Shown: one piece after another, positions 6 through 10,897 of the stretch
How the letters are laid out: every line of letters starts with the position of its first letter
Position numbering within the stretch: the first letter of the stretch is position 1
Assembly (NCBI GenBank): GCA_018267355.1
Contig: JAFDYP010000148.1
Location: 1 to 10,897, forward strand
DNA: 10,897 bases
DNA from: Bacteroidota bacterium
Lineage (GTDB): Bacteria; Bacteroidota; Bacteroidia; Chitinophagales; LD1
Reading direction: 5' to 3'
Position numbers and translations under genes: made by a program
Notes under the pieces: model-generated
Databases searched by the model: none
What the model was told of the DNA's origin: nothing
The model's input: only the letters and a program-made list of their open reading frames with translations

Positions 6-164
6 CGCTCCCGCACCATGGATGTGACCTGTGCACAGTGCAGTCACAGCTTTATTGGCCAGATCGAGGCGAAATGTTTGTACTTCAGTCTGCAGATAGC
101 CATGATCATCGGGTTTTTCACAGCCTACCCTATGAACTGGCTGCTGATAAAAAAGCAAATGTAA
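6..164 (+). pseudogene. 3' end of a DUF4396-like membrane protein (fragment or frameshifted)
   Basis: The frame beginning at base 6 is open to a TAA at 162-164; the first ATG is at 18, giving 48 residues. The C-terminal part reads as one transmembrane helix ending in 'GFFTAYPMNWLLIKKQM'. From memory this closely resembles the C-terminus of DUF4396 proteins, which end in a helix followed by a 'YPMNWLLIK'-type tail. Those proteins are usually 150-200 residues with several helices, so most of the protein is missing. The same frame has a TAG at bases 3-5, so it cannot simply continue leftward. Either a frameshift lies in the first 60 bases or so, or this is a remnant. A CxxC pair (residues 5-8) precedes the helix, but that part is not recognisable as family sequence and may be out of frame. 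It converges on the cytochrome gene, 29 bases away. Family assignment is moderate; the state of the gene is uncertain. Confidence 0.45.
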
Positions 165-176
165 TATCAGAACCGC

Positions 177-216
177 AGCGCCATGCGCCGTCATTAGCGG
201 TATTGCGCATGGCGCT
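177..216. terminator. 12-bp stem-loop between convergent genes
   Basis: Perfect 12-base inverted repeat, 177-188 against 205-216 (arm agcgccatgcgc), with a 16-base loop. It lies between the + strand DUF4396-like end (164) and the - strand cytochrome. The right arm and loop contain the last codons and the TAA (194-196) of the cytochrome gene. No clean T-run follows on either strand, so it is not a textbook intrinsic terminator. Position between converging genes suggests transcription termination or 3'-end protection. Confidence 0.45.
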
Positions 217-547
217 CTATCTGAGCTGCTACATAATCTGCGATCTCCGAAATCTGCGCATCTGATATGGAATCTTTGAAAGAGGGCATTTTGCCGAAAC
301 CAAAGATGATGATCTGACGCAGCTCTGCGGGGCTTTTGGTGAGCTGGCGGATATCTGGTGCCGGCAGACCACCCGGCGCCGGGCCTCCCTGACCTGTGAC
401 CTGGTGGCATCGCGCACAATTATCTACAAAAAGCTGTGCACCACCAGCCGACCCATCTGAGGCAGGAGAAGTACCATCCCCTTTGTGCAGTGGCTCGCAG
501 GCTGCAAGGCTTATCGTGATCAAGACTATGATATTTATCCGCTTCAT
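194..547 (-). CDS. small lipoprotein c-type cytochrome (class I)
   Basis: A 117-residue electron carrier with one covalently bound heme, predicted to be lipid-anchored and facing the periplasm. The start at 547 gives a short basic N-terminus, a hydrophobic stretch and a lipobox 'SLAAC' with Cys17 as the lipidated residue. The heme-attachment motif CARCH is at residues 44-48. Met87 in 'GKMPSF' is the likely sixth heme ligand, and a C-terminal helix follows (about 92-110), the usual class I cytochrome c order. Between residues 18 and 37 is a Gly/Ser/Asp/Pro-rich flexible linker. The frame is open back to 637, but that extension encodes the neighbouring terminator hairpin and spoils the signal sequence, so it was rejected. 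No electron donor or acceptor gene is adjacent, so its partner is unknown. The fold call is firm; the physiological role is not. Confidence 0.9.
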   Translation of the reverse strand: MKRINIIVLITISLAACEPLHKGDGTSPASDGSAGGAQLFVDNCARCHQVTGQGGPAPGGLPAPDIRQLTKSPAELRQIIIFGFGKMPSFKDSISDAQISEIADYVAAQIERHAQYR

Positions 548-603
548 GCTGTGCCGCTGATATCCAGCTATACTGTGGGTCGCAAATAGCATACCGTGCT
601 CAA

Positions 604-637
604 ATGAGAAAGGAGCACCGCAGCGCTCCTTTCTCAT
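604..637 (-). terminator. intrinsic-type terminator after the efflux operon
   Basis: Perfect 13-base inverted repeat, 604-616 against 625-637, with an 8-base loop. On the - strand it lies 19 bases past the stop of the outer-membrane channel gene (656). It is followed by a short TTT stretch, so the T-run is weak but the stem is strong. It separates the efflux operon from the cytochrome gene downstream. Confidence 0.75.
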
Positions 638-655
638 ACTGATATGTTCGGATCT

Positions 656-2074
656 TTACTTCCACCCTCCACCTAGGGCCTTGTAGATATTGATGTCTGC
701 CTTCAGCTGCTTATTTCTGATCTCTATCAGCTGCATGCGCGACTCCAGTGCCTCACGCTGCGTGAGGAGGACCTCCATATAGTCCGCACGTGCTGAGCGA
801 AAGAGCTTGTCAGATACGGTGATGGACTGCGTGAGTATATCTACCTCAGTAGACTTGGTATCGTAGCTCTTGCTGTATTTGTCTATAGCCGAAAACTGAT
901 TAGCGACTTCTACATAAGCCTTGAGAATAGTCTGCTCATAGCCGTAGACAGCCTTCACTTGATTGGCACGGCTGGTAAAGTAGGCAGCTTTGATAGCATT
1001 CCGATTGATGAGTGGCGCTGCTATATCTCCAAAGATAGAGCCTAGCAAAGACTCCGGCCTGAACCACACGGCTGGATTGAAGGCCTGAAAGCCGATTTCT
1101 GCCGAGAGGTGTATAGTAGGATAAAAGCTTGCCTTAGCCACTTTGACGTCGAGCTTGGCGGCAGCGAGCTCCTGCTCCGCCTTGCGTATATCAGGGCGGT
1201 TTTCAAACAGCTGTGCCGGTGTACCCACAAAGATCGAGTCAAACCTGACTGTATTCAGTGTGAGTGGATTTCTCCTGACCGGCTGTGGGAAGCGGCCCAC
1301 GAGATAGTTGATATGATTTTCTGTCTCTACTATCTTCTGCTGTATTTCGTATTGGAGGTTTTGCGTATTGAGCAGCTGCGCGTCAAACCGGTTGACAGCG
1401 AGCTGAGACACGCGGGCATTGTCCTTCTGCTGCCTGATGATACCGAGGGCATTTTTCTGGATGTCTATATTCTGGTTGATGATCACCAGCTGATTATCCA
1501 GTGTGAGCAGCTCATAGTAAGATTCGGCAATTTCAGCCACCAGATTGGTCACCATAAAATTTTTGCCTTCTATGCTGGCCAGGTACCTGCTCACTGCAGC
1601 CTTCTTGGCATTGCGCAGTTTCTTCCAGATATCGAGCTCCCAGGAGAATGCCGCACTGACAGCTATATCTCCGATCGGCTCCGGAAACCTCCTGCCGGGC
1701 TGTACCTCCAGCTGGTCTTCTACAGCACCCTGCGGCGTATAGCGCGGCGTCTTCTCCACTCCGCCGCCCAGCTTGAGGCCGCCAAAGGGCAGGTACTCTC
1801 CCTTGCGGGCACGGACCTCTGCCTGCGCCACCTGTATCTCCTGCATGGTGATGTTCAGCTCCTGATTATTTTTCAGCGCAGTATCTATCAGCGCTATCAG
1901 GTCCGGATCGGAGAAATAATGGCGCCATTTGATATTGGCAGAGTTGGTCGTATCCTGTGTAGCTCCGTTGTAGGCAGATGGCACAGTCTTATTTTCTGCC
2001 CTGATCGGCTCCTTGAAAAGTTTGCAGCCTGCTATAGATACCAGCAGCAGAGTGGCTGCGATGTATTTATGCAT
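656..2074 (-). CDS. outer-membrane efflux channel lipoprotein (TolC/OprM/NodT family)
   Basis: The outer-membrane exit duct of the tripartite RND pump. From 2074 it is 472 residues, close to the usual 450-490 of OprM-type channels. The signal peptide ends in the lipobox 'SIAGC' (Cys17), so it is a lipid-anchored channel. Two OEP repeats follow: an N-terminal half with the long alpha-barrel helices (about residues 50-260), and a second half opening with the family's 'ENRPDIRKAEQELAAAKLDV' block and 'A.ASFYPTIHLSAEIGF'. It ends in 'ALGGGWK', a typical C-terminus. The start at 2074 was chosen because a GAGGAAG Shine-Dalgarno-like stretch lies just upstream (2081-2087). It overlaps the RND stop by 8 bases, implying translational coupling. 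An in-frame ATG at 2089 would add five residues and cannot be excluded. It is the last gene of the operon, before the 604-637 hairpin. Confidence 0.93.
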   Translation of the reverse strand: MHKYIAATLLLVSIAGCKLFKEPIRAENKTVPSAYNGATQDTTNSANIKWRHYFSDPDLIALIDTALKNNQELNITMQEIQVAQAEVRARKGEYLPFGGLKLGGGVEKTPRYTPQGAVEDQLEVQPGRRFPEPIGDIAVSAAFSWELDIWKKLRNAKKAAVSRYLASIEGKNFMVTNLVAEIAESYYELLTLDNQLVIINQNIDIQKNALGIIRQQKDNARVSQLAVNRFDAQLLNTQNLQYEIQQKIVETENHINYLVGRFPQPVRRNPLTLNTVRFDSIFVGTPAQLFENRPDIRKAEQELAAAKLDVKVAKASFYPTIHLSAEIGFQAFNPAVWFRPESLLGSIFGDIAAPLINRNAIKAAYFTSRANQVKAVYGYEQTILKAYVEVANQFSAIDKYSKSYDTKSTEVDILTQSITVSDKLFRSARADYMEVLLTQREALESRMQLIEIRNKQLKADINIYKALGGGWK

Positions 2075-5000
2075 TGTTGTCTTCCTCATTTTTTCTGCCT
2101 GTTATCTTCTTTAATATTTTCTTGATGTTCTTGGAGAGCGCGGCCTCTGACTGGCTTTCTACAAAGTCTTCACTCAGCGGGCTGGCATCCTCATCCCTGA
2201 TCAGGCTCTTGCCTTCAGTCATCCTGCCTACTATAAAGTAGAGACCAGGTACGGAGATGATGCCGAATACAGTACCGAAAAACATACCGCCAAGCGCCGA
2301 TGAGCCGATGGTCTTATTGCCTACCGCACCCGGGCCTGTAGCTACCACGAGTGGTATCAGACCCGCAATAAACGCAAACGATGTCATGAGGATAGGCCGC
2401 AGACGCACACGGGCACCTTCTATAGCGGCCTCCAGTACTGTAGCTCCCTGCAGGTGCTTCTGCACGGCAAACTCTACAATGAGGATGGCATTCTTGCCCA
2501 GGAGGCCTACGAGCATGATGAGACCCATCTGTGCGTAGATATCATTGGCCAGGCCCATACCCTTCAGCAGGAGAAACGAACCGAATACACCCGGAGGAAG
2601 GGAAAGCAATACCGCCATCGGAATGATGAAACTCTCATACTGAGCTGCCAATACCAGATATACGAATATCAGTACGACACCAAAGATGATGATCGCCTCA
2701 TTGCCCCGGCGTGCCTCATCATAGGAGAGGCCCTCCCAGGCTATACCATATCCGTGCGGTAGTGTCTGGTCGGCTACCTCCTGGATGGCATGTATCGCGT
2801 CACCGCTCGTATAGCCACTAGCCGGCACACCTTTGATAGATGAGGAGGTATACAGGTTGAAGCGGGTGATCTCATTAGGCCCCTGGGTTTTTCTCATACT
2901 CATAAAGGAAGAGTAAGGCACCATTTCTCCCTTATCATTTTTGATAAAGAGATTGAGTACATCTTCGGGCAGCCTCCGGTACTCCGGTGCTGACTGGGTA
3001 TAGACCTTAAAGAAGTTGCCAAAGCGGATGAAACCCTGCTCATAGGTACTACCGATCAGGATATCCAGATTGTCCATCGCCTTACCGATGGTGACACCCT
3101 TCTGCATTGCCAGCTCATTGTCCACCACCAGCTCATACTGCGGATAGTTGGCCGCAAAGAAGGTGAAAAGGCCAGTGAGCTCTTTGCGCTTTTTCAGCGC
3201 TGCCATAAAATCCTTATTGACCCTGTCAAACTCCTGATAGTCTACGGTAGACCCCTTGTCCAGCAGACGGAGGGAGAAACCATCTGATGAACCATAACCA
3301 GGCACAGCAGGCGGCTCAAAGTACTCTATGACGGCACCCATATCTTTAGTTTTCTCTTCAAGCTCAGCGATGATCTGTTTTACATTGTGCTTGCGGTCAG
3401 ACCAGTCGGCCAGGTTGATGAGGCAGGTACCGGCATTGGAGCCACGACCTTCGGTCAGGATCTCATAGCCCGCGAGAGAGGATACGGAGTGCACTCCATC
3501 CACCTTCATGGCTATCTGCTGCAGTTTGCGCGCTACATCATTAGTACGCTCCAGCGTAGTGCCCGGAGGTGTCTGGATGATCGCGTAGATCATACCCTGG
3601 TCCTCATTGGGGATAAAGCCAGACGGCAATACTTCGTTTACAAAGAAGATGGCAAAGGCAAAACCTATAAAGAGACCATAAGTCACTACCCTGCGATCTG
3701 TGATGATACGGAGGAAAGAGGTGTACTTATTAGTAGCGGTCTCAAAAGTCGCATTGAACCAGTCAATGAACATATTGATAGGTGTCTTGCGCCGGTGCTG
3801 TCCATGTGTATTTTTCAGGATCATGGCGCAGAGTACCGGAGTGAGCGTCAGCGCCACCACACCAGACAGTACGATGGAGCTAGCCATGGTGATGGAGAAC
3901 TGGCGGTAAAACACACCGACCGGGCCCGACATAAATGCAACCGGTACAAACACTGCCGTCATCACGAGTGTAATGGCGATGATGGCACCGCTGATCTCAT
4001 CGAGTACTTTTTGTACGGCCTTGTATGGTGAGAGATGGTCGTCGTGCATTTTCACGTGCACCGCCTCTACCACCATGATCGCATTATCTACCACGATACC
4101 GATAGCCAGTACGAGTGCGAAGAGTGTCACGAGGTTCAGCGTGAGGCCAAAGATGCGCATGAAGAGGAAGGCACCTATCAGGGATACTGGTACCGCGAGG
4201 ATCGGTATCAATGTAGACCTCCAGTCACCGAGGAATACAAATACCACCAAAGCCACAAGAATGAACGCCTCCAGCAGGGTGTGGAGTACTTTCTCAATAG
4301 ACGCATCCACAAACTTTGACACATCATAATTGATCTCATAGTCCATGCCCGGTGGGAAGTCCTTCTTCAGTTCTTTGAGCTTTTCTTTGGTCTCTTCTAT
4401 GACCTTGCTCGCATTACTACCGATGTTCTGCTTCAGTACGATAGATGCTGCCGGGTAGCCATCCTTGTTTGAGTAGATATCAAAAAACTCACTACCCAGC
4501 TCTACGGTAGCCACATCTTTTAGCTTCAGGCTCTCACCGGTAGGATTGGCGCGGAGAATGATATTGGCATATTCTTCAGGAGTATTGAAGCGACCCTTGT
4601 AGCTCAATACATATTCGAGAGACTGGGCAGATTTGCCGGATGCCTGGCCTATACGTCCCGGGCGGCCTATCACACTCTGCTCGCTCACGGCATTCATCAC
4701 ATCTTCCGTAGAGATATTATACGCTCTCATACGGTCAGGCTTGAGCCACAGACGCATAGCAAACTGGCGGCTACCGAGTATCTGTGCACGGCCCATACCG
4801 CGTATACGCTGTATCTCCGGCAGGAGCTTTACGTTGGCGTAGTTGTATAGAAACTTCTCATCAGCATTCTTGTCCTTGCTGTAGAGATTGACGTACATGA
4901 GCATACTCGGCTGCAGCGGGCTGATGATCACGCCCTCACGCTGTACCAGAGGCGGCAGGTTGTTCATCACCTGATCCACACGGGTCTTTACGTTTACCAC

Positions 5001-5309
5001 CGCGGCATTGGGATCAGTACCCGGCTCAAATACGATCTGAATAGTGGCCTCACCGGCACTCGTAGCATCAGATATGATATACTGCATACCCTGCACGCCG
5101 TTGACAGCCCTTTCTATCGGGATCAGTGCCGATTTCACAAGTACGTCTGCACTTGCACCGGGGAAGTTGATGAAAACCATGACCCGGGGAGGTGCGATAT
5201 CCGGAAACTGGGAGATCGGTATCGTGCCGATAGCCAGTAAACCCAGGAATGTGATGGCAAGTGAGATGGCTATCGCCAGCACTGGCCTATGTATGAATTT
5301 GCTGAACAT
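2067..5309 (-). CDS. RND multidrug efflux transporter, inner-membrane subunit (AcrB/MexB, HAE-1 type)
   Basis: A 1080-residue proton-driven exporter (AcrB is 1049) that moves drugs, detergents or similar compounds from periplasm or inner leaflet into the outer-membrane channel. TM1 is at about residues 9-29, a first large periplasmic loop runs to about 335, TM2-6 cover about 340-497, TM7 lies near 543-560, a second periplasmic loop follows to about 870, and TM8-12 fill 872-1028. The TM4 motif reads 'GIVVDNAIMVVEA' (Asp408-Asn409), where AcrB has Asp407-Asp408. The TM10 lysine is kept (Lys939 in 'GKNAILIVEF'), as are the 'RLRPILMTS' residues that follow. This favours a hydrophobe/amphiphile exporter over a CzcA metal pump, which has a VDGA-type motif. 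About 50 charged residues extend past TM12. No Shine-Dalgarno is visible; an A-run precedes the ATG. It lies 24 bases after the adaptor gene and overlaps the channel gene. Substrate unknown. Confidence 0.96.
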   Translation of the reverse strand: MFSKFIHRPVLAIAISLAITFLGLLAIGTIPISQFPDIAPPRVMVFINFPGASADVLVKSALIPIERAVNGVQGMQYIISDATSAGEATIQIVFEPGTDPNAAVVNVKTRVDQVMNNLPPLVQREGVIISPLQPSMLMYVNLYSKDKNADEKFLYNYANVKLLPEIQRIRGMGRAQILGSRQFAMRLWLKPDRMRAYNISTEDVMNAVSEQSVIGRPGRIGQASGKSAQSLEYVLSYKGRFNTPEEYANIILRANPTGESLKLKDVATVELGSEFFDIYSNKDGYPAASIVLKQNIGSNASKVIEETKEKLKELKKDFPPGMDYEINYDVSKFVDASIEKVLHTLLEAFILVALVVFVFLGDWRSTLIPILAVPVSLIGAFLFMRIFGLTLNLVTLFALVLAIGIVVDNAIMVVEAVHVKMHDDHLSPYKAVQKVLDEISGAIIAITLVMTAVFVPVAFMSGPVGVFYRQFSITMASSIVLSGVVALTLTPVLCAMILKNTHGQHRRKTPINMFIDWFNATFETATNKYTSFLRIITDRRVVTYGLFIGFAFAIFFVNEVLPSGFIPNEDQGMIYAIIQTPPGTTLERTNDVARKLQQIAMKVDGVHSVSSLAGYEILTEGRGSNAGTCLINLADWSDRKHNVKQIIAELEEKTKDMGAVIEYFEPPAVPGYGSSDGFSLRLLDKGSTVDYQEFDRVNKDFMAALKKRKELTGLFTFFAANYPQYELVVDNELAMQKGVTIGKAMDNLDILIGSTYEQGFIRFGNFFKVYTQSAPEYRRLPEDVLNLFIKNDKGEMVPYSSFMSMRKTQGPNEITRFNLYTSSSIKGVPASGYTSGDAIHAIQEVADQTLPHGYGIAWEGLSYDEARRGNEAIIIFGVVLIFVYLVLAAQYESFIIPMAVLLSLPPGVFGSFLLLKGMGLANDIYAQMGLIMLVGLLGKNAILIVEFAVQKHLQGATVLEAAIEGARVRLRPILMTSFAFIAGLIPLVVATGPGAVGNKTIGSSALGGMFFGTVFGIISVPGLYFIVGRMTEGKSLIRDEDASPLSEDFVESQSEAALSKNIKKILKKITGRKNEEDNNA

Positions 5310-5333
5310 TTTTTTCTTAATTAGTACTTACAT

Positions 5334-6419
5334 TTATTCTGCGTGCAGGTCCTTCAGCTCGGAGATCGCTTTCTGAGGATCTACAAACTCAAATTTGATC
5401 TTGTCATTATTCTTCACCTTGCGGAGGCCATCCAGCAGCACATGGTCAGTCAGGCTGAGGCCCTCAGAGATGACATACAGGTGAGACATCTCCTGCGCTA
5501 CAGTCACCTGGCGCGACTTGACTGTACCATCTTTGTCTACTACGAAAACATATTTCTTGTCCAGTACCTCAAAGGTGGCACCCTGAGGGATGATGATCGC
5601 ATTCTTCAGTGAGACCGGCATCAGTACATTTCCGGTTTCTCCATGCCTGAGTATGCCTTTCGGATTAGGGAAAGTAGCGCGGAAGGCGATATTACCTGTT
5701 TCATTATTGAAATCTGCTTCTATCGTCTCTACCGTGCCCTCCTCATTAAACATGTCCTGATTAGCCATTTTCAGCTTCACTTTGCCGAGGCCGTTTTGCT
5801 TTTTGTCGGTGATATAGCGGAGGTACTCTGCCTCGGGCACGTTAAAGTATACCCACATCTTGCTATTGTCAGAGAGCGTCGTGAGCAGCTCGCCCTCGTC
5901 CAGGAGGCTACCCATCCGCACCATAAAGCGATCTATGATACCATCAAAAGGTGCCCTGATCTCTGTAAAGCTCAGATGCGCCTGAGCCAGTCCGAGCTCA
6001 GCCTTGGCCTTGTCGAGTTTTGCCTTTGCCAGTGCCATCTCCTTTGGAGATACGATATTGCTATCAGACAGGCTCTTGGTATTGAGGTACTCTATCTCTT
6101 CAAAGTTTACCTCTGCCTCTGCCTTTTGCTTTTCATTCTGATAAACTATAGGCATGATCTGAAAGAGGAGCTGGCCCTTGTGTACATGCTGGCCCTCATC
6201 TATGTAGATATTCTGAAGGTAGCCCTGCTCCATAGCCCTGATGTCTATGTGCTGTATAGAGTGGATCTTGCCTACATATTCTTTGTAGATGATCGTATCC
6301 TTCTGGATCGGCGTGGTGACCGGAAATACCTCTGCGTCCTCCTTTTCTTTTTCATTGTGGTGGCAGCTGGCTAAGACTAACAAGATAACTGGGCAGATGA
6401 GAATTGCGATCCTCTTCAT
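5334..6419 (-). CDS. periplasmic adaptor of the RND efflux pump (membrane fusion protein, AcrA/MexA type)
   Basis: A 361-residue adaptor that bridges the RND pump and the outer-membrane channel. It has a lipoprotein signal with lipobox 'LASC' (Cys19), so it is anchored to the inner membrane by lipid, as in AcrA. The first half of the lipoyl (biotinyl-like) domain is about residues 58-88, around 'GYLQNIYIDEGQHVHKG'. An Ala/Lys/Glu-rich alpha-hairpin follows at about 93-150, which would contact the channel. The second lipoyl half is at about 151-184 ('TEIRAPFDGIIDR'), with the beta-barrel from about 186 to 270 and a membrane-proximal domain at the C-terminus. It is the first gene of the three-gene operon, with 24 bases to the pump gene. 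The 148 bases upstream (6420-6567) should hold the promoter unless the operon is cotranscribed with the upstream ORF; I could not identify convincing promoter elements or an operator there. No regulator gene lies alongside. Confidence 0.94.
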   Translation of the reverse strand: MKRIAILICPVILLVLASCHHNEKEKEDAEVFPVTTPIQKDTIIYKEYVGKIHSIQHIDIRAMEQGYLQNIYIDEGQHVHKGQLLFQIMPIVYQNEKQKAEAEVNFEEIEYLNTKSLSDSNIVSPKEMALAKAKLDKAKAELGLAQAHLSFTEIRAPFDGIIDRFMVRMGSLLDEGELLTTLSDNSKMWVYFNVPEAEYLRYITDKKQNGLGKVKLKMANQDMFNEEGTVETIEADFNNETGNIAFRATFPNPKGILRHGETGNVLMPVSLKNAIIIPQGATFEVLDKKYVFVVDKDGTVKSRQVTVAQEMSHLYVISEGLSLTDHVLLDGLRKVKNNDKIKFEFVDPQKAISELKDLHAE

Positions 6420-6567
6420 GGTGCTTTTGATTTATTAATTGATGATTTTTCGGAAAACCGGACTAATGAGCTATTTGCTCTCTGCTTCACAGGTCATGCC
6501 TGCACTGCAGATATGCGGGAGCCACGATGTACATAGCACTGGGTGGCGCCCGTTTCGGAGAGTATGA

Positions 6568-7047
6568 TCAGGAGATAAAGCTCCGCCAGGAGTGATGGAG
6601 CACGAAAAGGCAGACGGTAGCGCAGCTCTGCGATACCTCTGTATAGGAGGCAAAAATATTGCCTACAGTAGCAAAATGAAACCGGCGGTCTGCCGCTGTT
6701 TCTTCCAGAGCTTTGCCGAGGCCTGCCTCCGGAGCATCATCGTTGGGGCCTATCTCATCAAATACCTCCAGCTGCCCGTGCGTGAGCCGGGATATGACAG
6801 GAGGCAGTGACACATATGAAGAGGAACCTGTGAGATCTGCAGAAAGCGGAATGGTATATAATGGCTGCAATGACAGTGGCTGCTCTGACTGCGTAGCAAA
6901 CGCTACTGACTGACCACCCCAAAAAACGATACCCAAGAAAAGAATGACACAGAACTGGGAAACCGACCTGGCCGACAAAAGGGAGAAACTATGATGCCTG
7001 ATGCACCTGATTTTATTTGTCATTGCGGGGCGAAAGTTCATAAACAT
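6568..7047 (-). CDS. possible small secreted protein, family not recognised
   Basis: An ORF of up to 159 residues; in-frame ATGs at 7041 and 7023 would shorten it to 157 or 151. I do not recognise the family. The N-terminus is a plausible Sec signal: Arg/His-rich, then a hydrophobic core 'FCVILFLGIVFWG', then 'SVAFATQ', which suits signal peptidase I. The remaining 105 or so residues are mixed, with an acidic patch 'EIGPNDDAPEAG' and two cysteines (C-x4-C) near the end. The ORF stops at a TGA at 6568-6570. The other two - strand frames remain open beyond it, to 6494 and 6471, so a frameshift near 6600-6660 changing the C-terminus is possible. Codon choice resembles neighbouring genes. It lies 148 bases upstream of the efflux adaptor on the same strand and could be cotranscribed. 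If it is not a gene, 6420-7291 is an 870-base non-coding stretch. Confidence 0.4.
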   Translation of the reverse strand: MFMNFRPAMTNKIRCIRHHSFSLLSARSVSQFCVILFLGIVFWGGQSVAFATQSEQPLSLQPLYTIPLSADLTGSSSYVSLPPVISRLTHGQLEVFDEIGPNDDAPEAGLGKALEETAADRRFHFATVGNIFASYTEVSQSCATVCLFVLHHSWRSFIS

Positions 7048-7242
7048 ATCAGCGTGGTCAAAAGAAAATAACTTTTTTTAGTCAAAGCCTTGATTTACCG
7101 AGGTGAATACGGCATATCCGTTGGTTATTAACAAAGTGGGATTAGACCTGTCCTGTGCTGATATGTAAAATCATAGTGTCAAAAAGATCTGTTAATATTA
7201 TTTAAAACAAATTTGATGTTTTATTAAAGTAGGCCTTAAAAT

Positions 7243-7269
7243 AATGAGGAGGCCATTGGCCTCCTCATT
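7243..7269 (-). terminator. intrinsic terminator of the fibre gene
   Basis: A near-continuous palindrome, 7243-7255 against 7257-7269, centred on 7256 (arm aatgaggaggcca). Read on the - strand it lies 22 bases after the fibre gene's stop and is followed by ATTATTTTAA, a fair T-rich tail. In practice the loop would open to 3-5 bases. This ends the fibre transcript and isolates it from the genes downstream. Beyond it, 7048-7242 is AT-rich and holds no gene I can see; it should carry the promoter for the 7047 ORF. Confidence 0.85.
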
Positions 7270-7291
7270 TGTAACCCTGATACACAATTGA

Positions 7292-7936
7292 TTAGCGGCC
7301 CGTGGTCATATTCAGACGCTCATTGATGGCATCTACCTGAGCCTTGATACGGGTATAATTTTCGACCTGAGTCGCTGTCTGCGTCTTGAGTTTTTCATTT
7401 TCCGAGCGCAGCTGCTCTATGATCTCGCGGTCAGCACGCTGCTGTTTATTCAGCTCTTGAATAGCGCCTATGGCGAGCGCCGTGATCTGATCAAAGTCTA
7501 CAGTGCGGAAGTCATTTACCTTTTTGCCATATACAAAGACATTGCCCTCCTGCCCGCTCCAGCTCTCCGTACGGAAAGTGTGATCACTCTTTACAGCGGT
7601 CACTTTGACAGGATGTGCCATATTCTTCTGATCATAAAGCAGCACCTCATCTCCCTGCTCAAAACCATGAGGGGCGGCTGTCGTAATACTCAGCATACCA
7701 CCATCTGTGCGGACAGATGCAGCCAAAGCAAAAACAGTAGGGATGACATCATTATTCTTATTGACAGCAGTAGGATAGACGCTCTCTACCTGCTGCGCTA
7801 TGAAGCCCGTCTTAGAGCGGTTGCCTCTTTGGATAGAGTCTATATACAGGTATTTAGTGACCTCTAGCCTATCAGCTACATCCAGCAGGGAAGCTGTAGC
7901 AGGATAGCTTAGGTCGCGCTTGATACGACAGTCGCT
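7292..7936 (-). other. S74-type self-cleaving chaperone domain with predicted cleavage site
   Basis: This is the C-terminal 214 residues of the fibre protein. In phage tailspikes such as endosialidase NF, the S74 domain drives trimerisation and then cuts itself off, using a serine and a lysine five residues later. Both are present in 'SDCRIK' (Ser codon 7934-7936, Lys codon 7919-7921). The family's 'TGFIAQQVE' block and the '[17 protein letters not shown]' helix follow. Cleavage is expected just before the serine. Between those two blocks is an extra segment with '[13 protein letters not shown]', and a coiled coil rich in Gln/Glu/Lys closes the protein. Confidence 0.85.
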
Positions 7937-10897
7937 CTGCACATTGACCTCCGCCGAGAGGATGCGACCCGATGAATGTATAGATACAGGTACTGAGCCG
8001 CTATTGCCCGGATTACTGCCGGCCCCACCACTAGAGAGGTAGCCATAGCTGGTATAGTTCGTCGTGACAGTGCTGGCCACATCCAACGGATAGCTAGGTG
8101 AAGATGTGCCAATTCCGACATTGCCATTTTTCAGTACCACCAGCGCATCGGAAGAATAAAAACCGGGATTACCATTGCCGATAGTAAACAGACGGTCAGT
8201 ACTTATCCAGTTTGTAGTAGAGGATGGTGTATATGTAGTATTATACGAGCCTACTACTAGCTCTCCCTCTGAAGGAGCGTTCAATCCACTGCCAAAAGTA
8301 ATACTCTGTACTCCGCTGGACGTGTTAAAATAGCCTATACTCACTGCACCAGAACTAGTAGCATTACTACCTTGTCCAGCTGCGACGGCAGCGCTTCCGC
8401 TGGCAGTATTAGCCAGACCTATGGCTACAGCGCCGGTGTTTGTGGCATTATTATTTTGCCCTATGGCGGTGCTCACGCTGCCGCTGGCACTATTATTCTG
8501 GCCCATGGCAGTGGCAGCAGTACCACCTGCGGTATTGGCCAGGCCTATAGCTACAGACCCTGTATTCGGGGCGCTATTATACTGTCCGGCAGAGATGCTG
8601 TAGTTGCCATTCGCTGTATTATTACCGCCTATAGCCGCTGCTCCAAATCCTCCCACAGTATTGGTGGTGCCAAAAGCCATAGCAGCATTATTTGAAGCAG
8701 TATTAGCATACCCTATAGCAGCTGAAACGATGCCGGTAGCATTGTTGCTTTGGCCGAAAGCCATGCTATAATTGTTTGTAGAAGTATTGCCATATCCCAG
8801 AGCCGCAGCAGTATTTCCACTCACGTAGTTTGACGCTCCTCCTGCTATACCATATTGCGCAAAGACCCTGTTATTAGATCCAAAAGCAGCGGATGCCGTA
8901 GCTGCTGCATTATTATATTGTCCGGCGGCGAAGGCATTGACGCCGCTGGCAGTATCTATACCTCCAAATGCAGTACTGGATGCTCCGCTAGCCACTGTCT
9001 GATAGTTGGCAGCTAAAGCCTGATTGGCTGTAGCTTTAGACTGATAGCCAAACGCTGTGCTGAAAGAGGCGTTAGCAGTATTAGAGTATCCTATTGCCGA
9101 GCTTTGATTGCCCGTAGCGTTGCAAAACAGGCCTGCTGCAAGGCTTTGATTGCCTGATGATGTGCTATTAGACCCAAGAGCAATACTACAACCTCCTGTG
9201 GAGGTCAAGCCGGCGCCCATGGCTATATTACCTTGATTGAGACCATTAGATGTAGGGGTAAAATAGAAGTTTCCACTTGAAGCTGCAAAGGTGATATTGC
9301 TAGCTCCCATGGTCACGGTCCTATTGCCAGTCAGGGTACCATCAGAGTTGTAAATATTTTTTGCTGAGATCGTAGCCGGGTCTACCCAGCTACCCGCACC
9401 AGTACCGCTACCCTGCATAATATAGCCGTTAACAGCGCCATTGGTCATCTGAAAGTTTGTGGTCATTGTATTACCTACTACCTCCAGTGCATTGGCCGGC
9501 ACATTGGTACCTATACCTACACCTATAGCAGTGATGCTCATACCCAGTACATTGCCTGTACCAGGTGCAGATGAGCCTGCGGCTGTGGTAGTATTATTCA
9601 AGTAAAAATCTATCGCATTGAGATTACTGCCTACTACACTATTATGTCTCGTAGAGATGAAATGCCTATACCCGCCGCCGCCATACTGGATGGCAATATC
9701 AGCATTGCTCTGGCCACCTACCAGAGATGCACCGCTTCCTCTACCGGATAAAAGCTCCAAAGCGCTCACTTGTGACAATGGTGCATTTGTATTATTGCCA
9801 CGGATCAACGCATTGGCTCGCAAATCCATCAGAGCCGCTATACCTGAGAGACTCATTACATAAGTGCTGGTGGCTGTATTGTAAAAGTCGAACTGACCAT
9901 TCCATTCGCCAAAGTAGGTATGATCACCCCCGCTACCCAGAGAATATATGTAGTGATTAACGTCTGTGCCGGCGAGATAAAGCTTGTTAGCAGATGTGCC
10001 ACTGTTATTGATCAGGTACAGGCTACCATTTACATTTGCATTGCCATTCACATCCAGCTTGTATGCCGGAGCAGAAGTACCTATACCCACATAGGTGCCA
10101 TCATCATAGATGATGCTGCATGTAGCGTCGGTACCGTTAGATTTTAGGACGAGGTTTGGCGTAGAGCATCCTACCGGGCCAGTTGCGCCTGTAGTACCTG
10201 TCGCACCTGTAGGACCTTGCGCACCATTGATGCCATTAGTACCTGCTGCTCCGGTGGGGCCAGTAGCTCCATCTGCGCCATTCGTTCCGTTAGTGCCTAC
10301 TGCGCCAGTGGGACCAACTGCGCCAGTGGGACCAGCTACACCTGCAGGACCTTGCGGACCGGTAGCACCGTCTGCGCCAGTCGGGCCAGCTACACCCGTT
10401 GCACCTTGAGGGCCAGTAGGGCCTTGTGGGCCGGTAGCTCCATCTGCACCATTTGTTCCATTAGTACCTGCCGCGCCGGTTGGACCAGCTACACCCGCCG
10501 GACCTTGTGGGCCGGTTGCGCCATCTGCGCCATTCGTTCCATTAGTTCCTGCTGCGCCGGTCGGGCCAGCTGCACCCGCAGGACCTTGCGGGCCAGTAGC
10601 TCCATCTGCTCCATTCGTTCCGTTGGTGCCTGCTGCACCGGTTGGACCAGCTATACCTGCGGGACCCTGGGGACCGGTAGCACCGTCAGTACCATTCGCT
10701 CCTGTAGGGCCGGTAGGACCTTGTGCGCCTGTAGCTCCATCTGCACCATTTGTTCCATTAGTACCTGCCGCGCCGGTTGGACCGGCGGGACCCTGTGGAC
10801 CAGTCGCTCCATCTGCGCCAGTCGGGCCAGTTACACCCGCTGCACCTTGAGGGCCGGTAGGACCTTGTGCGCCTGTTGCTCCATCTGCGCCATTGGC
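7292..10897 (-). CDS. giant collagen-like / YadA-head / S74 fibre protein (5' end outside the window)
   Basis: One frame, open from the right edge to the TAA at 7292: at least 1201 residues, N-terminus missing. Order: (1) 81 unbroken Gly-X-Y triplets (10169-10897); (2) a linker with Cys codons at 10166-10168 and 10118-10120, leading into a '[15 protein letters not shown]' motif at about 10043-10087; (3) a fibre-like region to about 9227, with a second such motif ('[15 protein letters not shown]'); (4) 23 YadA-head-type repeats (8261-9226); (5) a linker with a third motif, '[13 protein letters not shown]'; (6) an S74-type domain starting at 'SDCRIK' (7919-7936); (7) a C-terminal coiled coil of about 50 residues. 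No YadA-type membrane anchor, LPXTG or obvious type IX sorting domain is seen at the C-terminus. Collagen helices, YadA heads and S74 domains are trimeric in known proteins, so a homotrimeric surface or extracellular filament is inferred, perhaps for adhesion. A GTG at 10090 could be mistaken for the start, but the coding frame clearly continues upstream. The secretion route cannot be judged without the N-terminus. Confidence 0.9.
8261..9226 (-). repeat. 23 tandem 42-bp units encoding YadA-head-type 14-residue repeats
   Basis: Exactly 966 bases, or 23 x 42, with no insertion or deletion. Each unit encodes 14 residues of the form [h]-A-[h]-G-x-x-N-x-A-[S/T]-x-x-x-[S/A], for example '[14 protein letters not shown]' and '[14 protein letters not shown]'. 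This is the Hep/Hag (YadA head) pattern, which folds as a left-handed parallel beta-roll in trimeric adhesins. A degenerate 24th unit starts 'LVVGSYN'. Units are diverged at DNA level, so the array is old rather than freshly amplified. Confidence 0.9.
10169..10897 (-). repeat. collagen-like Gly-X-Y coding repeat, 81 triplets, continuing past the window edge
   Basis: The - strand frame encodes 81 consecutive X-Y-Gly triplets with no interruption, made mostly of [18 protein letters not shown] and ADG (residue letters). Pro is frequent at X and Thr, Ala, Asn or Asp at Y, the bacterial collagen composition seen for example in Bacillus BclA-type proteins. The frame joins the fibre protein downstream without a stop. 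The opposite strand gives Pro/Ala/Val-rich ORFs that are shadows of this repeat. Confidence 0.95.
10448..10690 (-). repeat. three consecutive 81-bp (27-residue) tandem units in the collagen segment
   Basis: Nine-triplet units, triplets 24-32, 33-41 and 42-50 counted from the window edge, lie head to tail. Each reads (A/T)[11 protein letters not shown](I/A/V)[14 protein letters not shown] in residue letters. Shortened or expanded relatives flank them on both sides. The unit is a multiple of three bases, so gain or loss of a copy would keep the frame. Some third-codon positions differ between copies. Confidence 0.85.

Follow-up and report, generated by a model that had tools for sequence, protein, structure and literature searches.

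A collagen-shafted candidate surface fibre of Bacteroidota related to the mosaic adhesive trimers of Bdellovibrio

The gene at one end of a Bacteroidota contig joins collagen, YadA-head and S74 modules in one protein, raising the question of whether its product is a cell-surface fibre, a released matrix protein, a phage tail fibre or an accidental fusion of unrelated genes. Our analysis suggests, with a probability of roughly 70%, that it encodes the C-terminal portion of a trimeric surface fibre of mosaic build, homologous to the mosaic adhesive trimers (MATs) of Bdellovibrio but with collagen as its shaft. By analogy with its relatives, the protein would form homotrimers and be displayed on the cell surface.

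Module layout of the fibre gene

The stretch of DNA analysed here (the window) comprises all 10,897 bases of contig C53, one of 645 contigs in a fragmented 3.42-Mb genome with 77% completeness. The fibre gene occupies 7292-10897 on the minus strand as a single open frame of 1201 codons without a stop until 7292-7294. It is truncated at its 5' end, where the contig ends within the collagen, so that the N terminus, and with it the MAT-like N domain that would classify the protein, lies off the contig. The following features were assigned:

10163..10891, minus strand: collagen array of 81 Gly-X-Y triplets, residues 3-245, cut by the contig end (Pfam and sequence)
9233..10162, minus strand: beta-rich linker with VGIGTSxPxxxLDVxG-type motifs, residues 246-555 (sequence; within the stretch that is 89.5% identical in the complete orthologue L196)
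8267..9232, minus strand: YadA-head beta-roll, 23 units of 14 residues, residues 556-877 (Pfam, periodicity, phmmer relatives in the PDB)
7937..8266, minus strand: segment before the predicted cleavage point, residues 878-987 (sequence; placed by S74 homology)
7763..7936, minus strand: Peptidase_S74 match, residues 988-1045, in which Ser988 (codon 7934-7936) and Lys993 form the SDxxxK dyad (Pfam; match of the model to the MYRF ICA)
7514..7744, minus strand: six-stranded beta-barrel insert within the S74/ICA domain, residues about 1052-1128
7292..7513, minus strand: second half of the ICA domain, long C-terminal helix (coiled coil) and stop, residues 1129-1201
7841..8090, minus strand: recombination tract in the S74 core, where identity to L196 versus L060 reverses

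The original prediction had placed 81 collagen triplets, 23 YadA-head repeats and an S74 chaperone in one frame. The frame, Pfam and the periodicity confirm this, and Collagen, YadA_head and Peptidase_S74 each score above their Pfam cut-offs in the window protein. All 81 collagen triplets are consecutive (Pfam Collagen, 113 bits), with mainly Ala or Pro in X and mainly Thr, Ala, Asn and Gln in Y, and Asp is the sole charged residue of the rod. As Pro is absent from Y, the rod cannot depend on 4-hydroxyproline at this position, on which animal collagen relies. Matches to the NCBIfam models SclB, Lcl and SclA span the collagen stretch and stay below their cut-offs; membership in these families was not accepted.

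The beta-roll repeats its 14-residue unit 23 times without insertions or deletions. A simple position rule is obeyed by 22 of the 23 units, compared to at most 12 in 2000 shuffles, and residue autocorrelation has maxima at lags 14 and 28. Pfam YadA_head (34.1 bits, cut-off 25) covers a single stretch, so that the count of 23 rests on periodicity rather than on Pfam. In L196 the Pfam YadA model is unmatched at E 0.01, yet 21 of 23 units keep the rule. Relatives of the beta-roll found by phmmer in the PDB include BpaC, CbpF and UspA1. Although the 14-residue head repeats are shared with YadA-type trimeric autotransporters, the window protein has no Pfam match to the YadA anchor at E 0.001, in line with the original prediction, and its C terminus consists of the S74 domain and a coiled coil.

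Peptidase_S74 was detected at 33 bits, and the dyad motif reads SDCRIK (988-993) in the window and SDRRIK in the orthologues L060 and L196. The predicted structure of the domain matches the MYRF ICA with an rmsd of 1.5 over 97 residues. Chaperone fold and Ser-Lys motif are thus common to phage S74 fibres, the MYRF ICA and the window protein; the latter, in contrast, is cellular and exported, and its two domain halves are separated by a beta-barrel insert of about 75 residues. The conserved SDxxxK dyad and the behaviour of relatives suggest self-cleavage at Ser988. Since the insert is absent from some paralogues, comparing S74 domains with and without it offers a natural test of how ICA chaperones accommodate a guest domain. 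One viral contig (L203) encodes an S74 fibre matching the cellular profile over query residues 1-197, including the insert region.

Orthologues, selection and genomic neighbourhood

In the near relative SZAS-56, locus L060 is colinear with window positions 91-10379 at 94% identity; it is likewise cut in the collagen, after 33 triplets. A complete orthologue of 2160 amino acids was found in G007, a same-genus genome in few contigs (L196:268-6771, minus strand, on a 261-kb contig). It runs from a signal peptide (MKRLLLLLTTFYTLGIAAQAP, recognised by eye rather than by a predictor) through an N domain of about 105 residues, 356 collagen triplets broken only by five single Thr, and the beta-roll to S74, and is 89.5% identical to the window protein over 955 aligned residues beyond the collagen. 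With the collagen rise of 0.286 nm per residue, its rod would measure about 305 nm. A candidate for the 5' half of the SZAS-56 orthologue is L181 on contig C4, whose upstream regulator resembles that of L196, but its N terminus is nearer to at least six other paralogues.

The gene is under purifying selection: across 956 codons beyond the collagen, dN/dS is 0.125 relative to L060 and 0.10 relative to L196, the more distant of the two. In steps of 250 bases, identity to L060 is 96.8-99.6% along the shaft (8341-10090) and 89.6-98.8% in the efflux operon next to it, and identity to L196 is 82-86%. Only the S74 core departs from this pattern: 7841-8090 is 94.4% identical to L196 and about 78-78.9% to L060, opposite to the rest of the gene, a pattern that marks recombination at the cap in one or other of the two close lineages. 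Collagen indels account for a second low step against L060, 10091-10340 (75.4%). A contig that terminates in a repeat and a recombination tract in the S74 core could also be expected of a decayed gene or of a mis-assembled chimera of unrelated genes. Such an origin is scarcely credible, however, as L060 and L196 have the same module order without stops and both dN/dS values are low. In particular, the frame is open in both orthologues over the shared part, with neither frameshift nor stop between the collagen and 10090.

The three-module combination is not unique to the window gene: among 120 listed of 183 homologues, Collagen, YadA_head and Peptidase_S74 occur together in four proteins (P0001, P0002, P0004 and P0113). 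By name and sequence the gene belongs to the same family as the Bacteroidota "tail fiber domain-containing protein" (P0001, P0002), although many proteins of this name lack collagen or have other N termini, such as the QNVGIGT type.

Another reading is that the protein is a fibre of a prophage or of a phage-tail-like (eCIS) particle. The window collagen and, once, residues 695-1050 are matched by PHROGs tail-fibre families, and S74 and C1q tips are described from eCIS fibres in the available part of PMC12923769. Nevertheless, we consider a phage or eCIS fibre highly improbable. An RND efflux operon (HlyD/RND/OEP, 656-6419, in which the frame 2067-5309 was called RND from sequence rather than by Pfam) lies beside the fibre gene in the window (3' side), L060 and G007, and in G007 efflux and regulator-like genes flank the orthologue on both sides. 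The orthologue also carries a signal peptide. No N-domain relative was found among 101 pattern matches in IMG/VR, and none of five representative N domains matched PHROGs at E 0.001, the one weak match being at 0.35. The view of the locus as chromosomal rather than viral thus held up, and no flanking phage tail genes were found, both sides being seen in G007; the window's own 5' side is off its contig.

A small frame with a hydrophobic start (6568-7047, minus strand) lies between the fibre gene and the efflux operon, and a similar-ended frame has the same position in G007 (L234:18205-18678); Pfam finds no match in either. In G007 the efflux operon sits between two N-domain fibre genes, with an MFS-like/HlyD/OEP set near the other side.

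A conserved N domain with exchanged tips links the gene to MATs

The N domain of L196 was modelled as a six-strand beta-sandwich (pLDDT 90), a generic fold. With the N-domain profile A2 we located 9 places in the genome of the window, 16 in SZAS-56 and 28 in RYN_284; a match occurs at least once in 70 of the 99 genomes examined, counting that of the window, with a maximum of 37 in one related genome. Because the domain recurs so often, asking what it binds at the surface and how it passes the outer membrane amounts to a single question about many proteins. MAGs labelled as Helicobacteraceae and Colwellia are within reach of the profile as well (L096, E 3.8e-17; L095, E 4.4e-16), and a protein search with L095 as query gave eight matches, none of them named Bdellovibrio.

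All five representative N domains matched NF053851 (Bdello_MAT_N), the only NCBIfam model to do so at E 1, with E values of 1.8e-7 to 2.8e-10. On the window's genome this model identified the same nine places as A2, and it matched none of 14 control genomes. The scores, 31-40 bits for the five representatives and 21-36 bits for the nine places, stay below the curated cut-off of 60, indicating homology outside the Bdellovibrio subfamily.

According to the available text of PMC10769870, MATs form a large paralogue family with a signal peptide, a beta-rich N-terminal domain directly after it, homologous to the one described here, and an S74 tip with SDxxxK or other tips; C1q/TNF-like tips occur in both families. 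Signal peptide and adjoining N domain are seen in L196 (about 105 residues versus about 130), the window's own end being off the contig, and an S74 tip with SDxxxK in the window, L060 and L196, with other tips in paralogues. What differs here is the approximately 300 nm collagen shaft of the orthologue, the YadA-type beta-roll, the beta-barrel insert in S74 and the Bacteroidota host. The main text of PMC10769870 contains neither "collagen" nor "Bacteroid-" (0 occurrences each), so that the shaft sets MATs and the window family apart; "Bacteroid-" is likewise absent from the main text of PMC8968730 as far as available. By their titles, the mosaic adhesive trimer papers found all concern Bdellovibrio, and titles and abstract openings gave no account of the window gene's architecture. 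The window gene is best regarded as a variant of already known MAT-like fibres, distinguished by its collagen shaft, and not as a wholly new machine. Many Bacteroidota genes, most of them without a proper name ("tail fiber domain-containing", "hypothetical"), are thereby linked to an adhesin family that has been studied experimentally.

In the same-genus genomes SZAS-56 and G007, 27 of the 30 N-domain frames found were fetched (one further G007 frame, in L257, is not counted), three of them with a masked or cut 3' end (L180, L181, L201). Collagen is present in 24 of the 27 and the S74 motif in 7. Pfam analysis of 20 sequences, 19 tips and the whole of L196, revealed S74, C1q, PKD with fn3 and ALK/LTK glycine-rich, and Gp53-like tail-fibre tips above cut-off, as well as Phage_depo_C, YadA_head and an ice-binding beta-roll; six sequences had no match at E 0.01 and two matched solely below cut-off. 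A database search limited to lengths of about 1200-3800 residues returned 145 N-domain proteins, of which 120 were listed: 39 of these have at least ten consecutive triplets, 21 have SDx[RK]xK and 6 have both. Collagen is thus the rule within the genus and common, though not general, outside it.

It is tempting to regard the MAT-type N domain as the base of a phylum-crossing display system, which would give Bacteroidota an alternative to the type IX tail for getting to the outer surface and staying there, and in which collagen often forms the shaft and tips are exchanged between genes; the prey-gripping fibres of Bdellovibrio would then be a single branch of a grappling toolkit common to bacteria in general. 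This broader view is tentative, and we rate it as somewhat more doubtful than probable.

Two paralogues, L190 and L116, combine the N domain with a short collagen and a C1q-like tip (Pfam above cut-off for L190, assigned from sequence for L116), a layout resembling animal C1q or adiponectin. Short frames of 154-184 residues (VVAS.G..SISYT type) lie directly upstream of N-domain genes in the same direction at L246, L247, L248 and L256. Divergent, mutually related TPR/LuxR-like genes, several with Pfam scores below cut-off, lie upstream at 5 of the 24 N-domain fibre genes examined, and PAS histidine kinases at two further ones (L236, L250). The TPR/LuxR-like genes are located as follows:

L234:10476-12188
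L235:609-2291
L238:958-2631
L242:1034-2674
L244:861-2585

Export, probable retention and proposed assembly

The signal peptide of L196 fits the predicted export of the protein, and hydrophobic, signal-peptide-like starts are present in 110 of the 116 Met-starting listed N-domain proteins by a crude hydropathy rule. The original prediction was borne out in part: the gene is chromosomal, its product exported, devoid of a YadA anchor and equipped with an intact S74 dyad, whereas the type IX feature that it had considered was not found on the window protein (no NCBIfam sorting-tail match at E 1), and none of the 136 TIGR04183 matches listed when 150 of 208 candidates in the genome were scored falls on contig C53. 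Of the 120 listed N-domain proteins, none was matched by a small type IX tail profile built from four sequences, P0113 included; in the S74 set this profile matched 6 of 120, again including P0113. It missed L243, whose end resembles a type IX tail, so that its zero is not absolute. None of the 18 N-domain proteins within the S74 set has the tail, which is what chance would give for 18 and 6 of 120. P0167 carries a type IX label that its C terminus does not support.

These results bear on whether the fibre stays on the cell. The same export and folding could also yield an extracellular matrix or biofilm protein whose trimers are shed with neither end held by the cell. A lipobox-like pattern in just 1 of the 120 listed N-domain proteins, the lack of matches to the small type IX profile in this set and the generic beta-sandwich fold of the N domain would all suit such a released protein. 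On the other hand, paralogues with one end conserved and the other swapped form a pattern that has been argued to mark retained adhesins, and MATs, with a homologous N domain, are located on the surface of the Bdellovibrio predator (both in the available text of PMC10769870). We therefore hold release to be rather unlikely and favour a retained surface fibre, anchored by its N domain and contacting a target with its tip, as the mosaic pattern and the MATs suggest.

Assembly of this surface fibre may proceed in five steps. The signal peptide, seen in L196 rather than in the window, would direct the chain over the inner membrane, and the C-terminal S74 domain and coiled coil would then unite three chains, by analogy with phage fibre S74, MYRF and the MAT Bd3182. 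The beta-roll and afterwards the collagen rod would wind up behind S74. Ser988 of the SDxxxK dyad would attack its own backbone, so that the last 214 residues, including the insert, are shed as a spent folding cap; in Bd3182, cleavage at S782 is abolished by S782A (PMC10769870, available text). Finally, the N-terminal beta-sandwich common to the paralogues would retain the fibre on the cell while the variable tip meets its target. The model predicts collagen fibres of about 300 nm, completed by a disposable chaperone.

A comparable arrangement is known from Legionella Lcl, which has a secreted collagen stalk, a trimeric C-terminal domain and its N-terminal end at the cell surface. Lcl is, in contrast, a type II secretion substrate that binds the surface via a 30-residue amphipathic helix, and the available part of its description mentions no S74 or YadA part (PMC11162425). 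Pfam Lcl_C is annotated on some N-domain relatives (P0129, P0148 and P0213).

An S74 protein with a different ending is encoded at L048 on contig C214 of the same genome, where a type IX sorting tail follows the S74 domain; if this S74 domain self-cleaves, the sorting tail would depart together with the cap.
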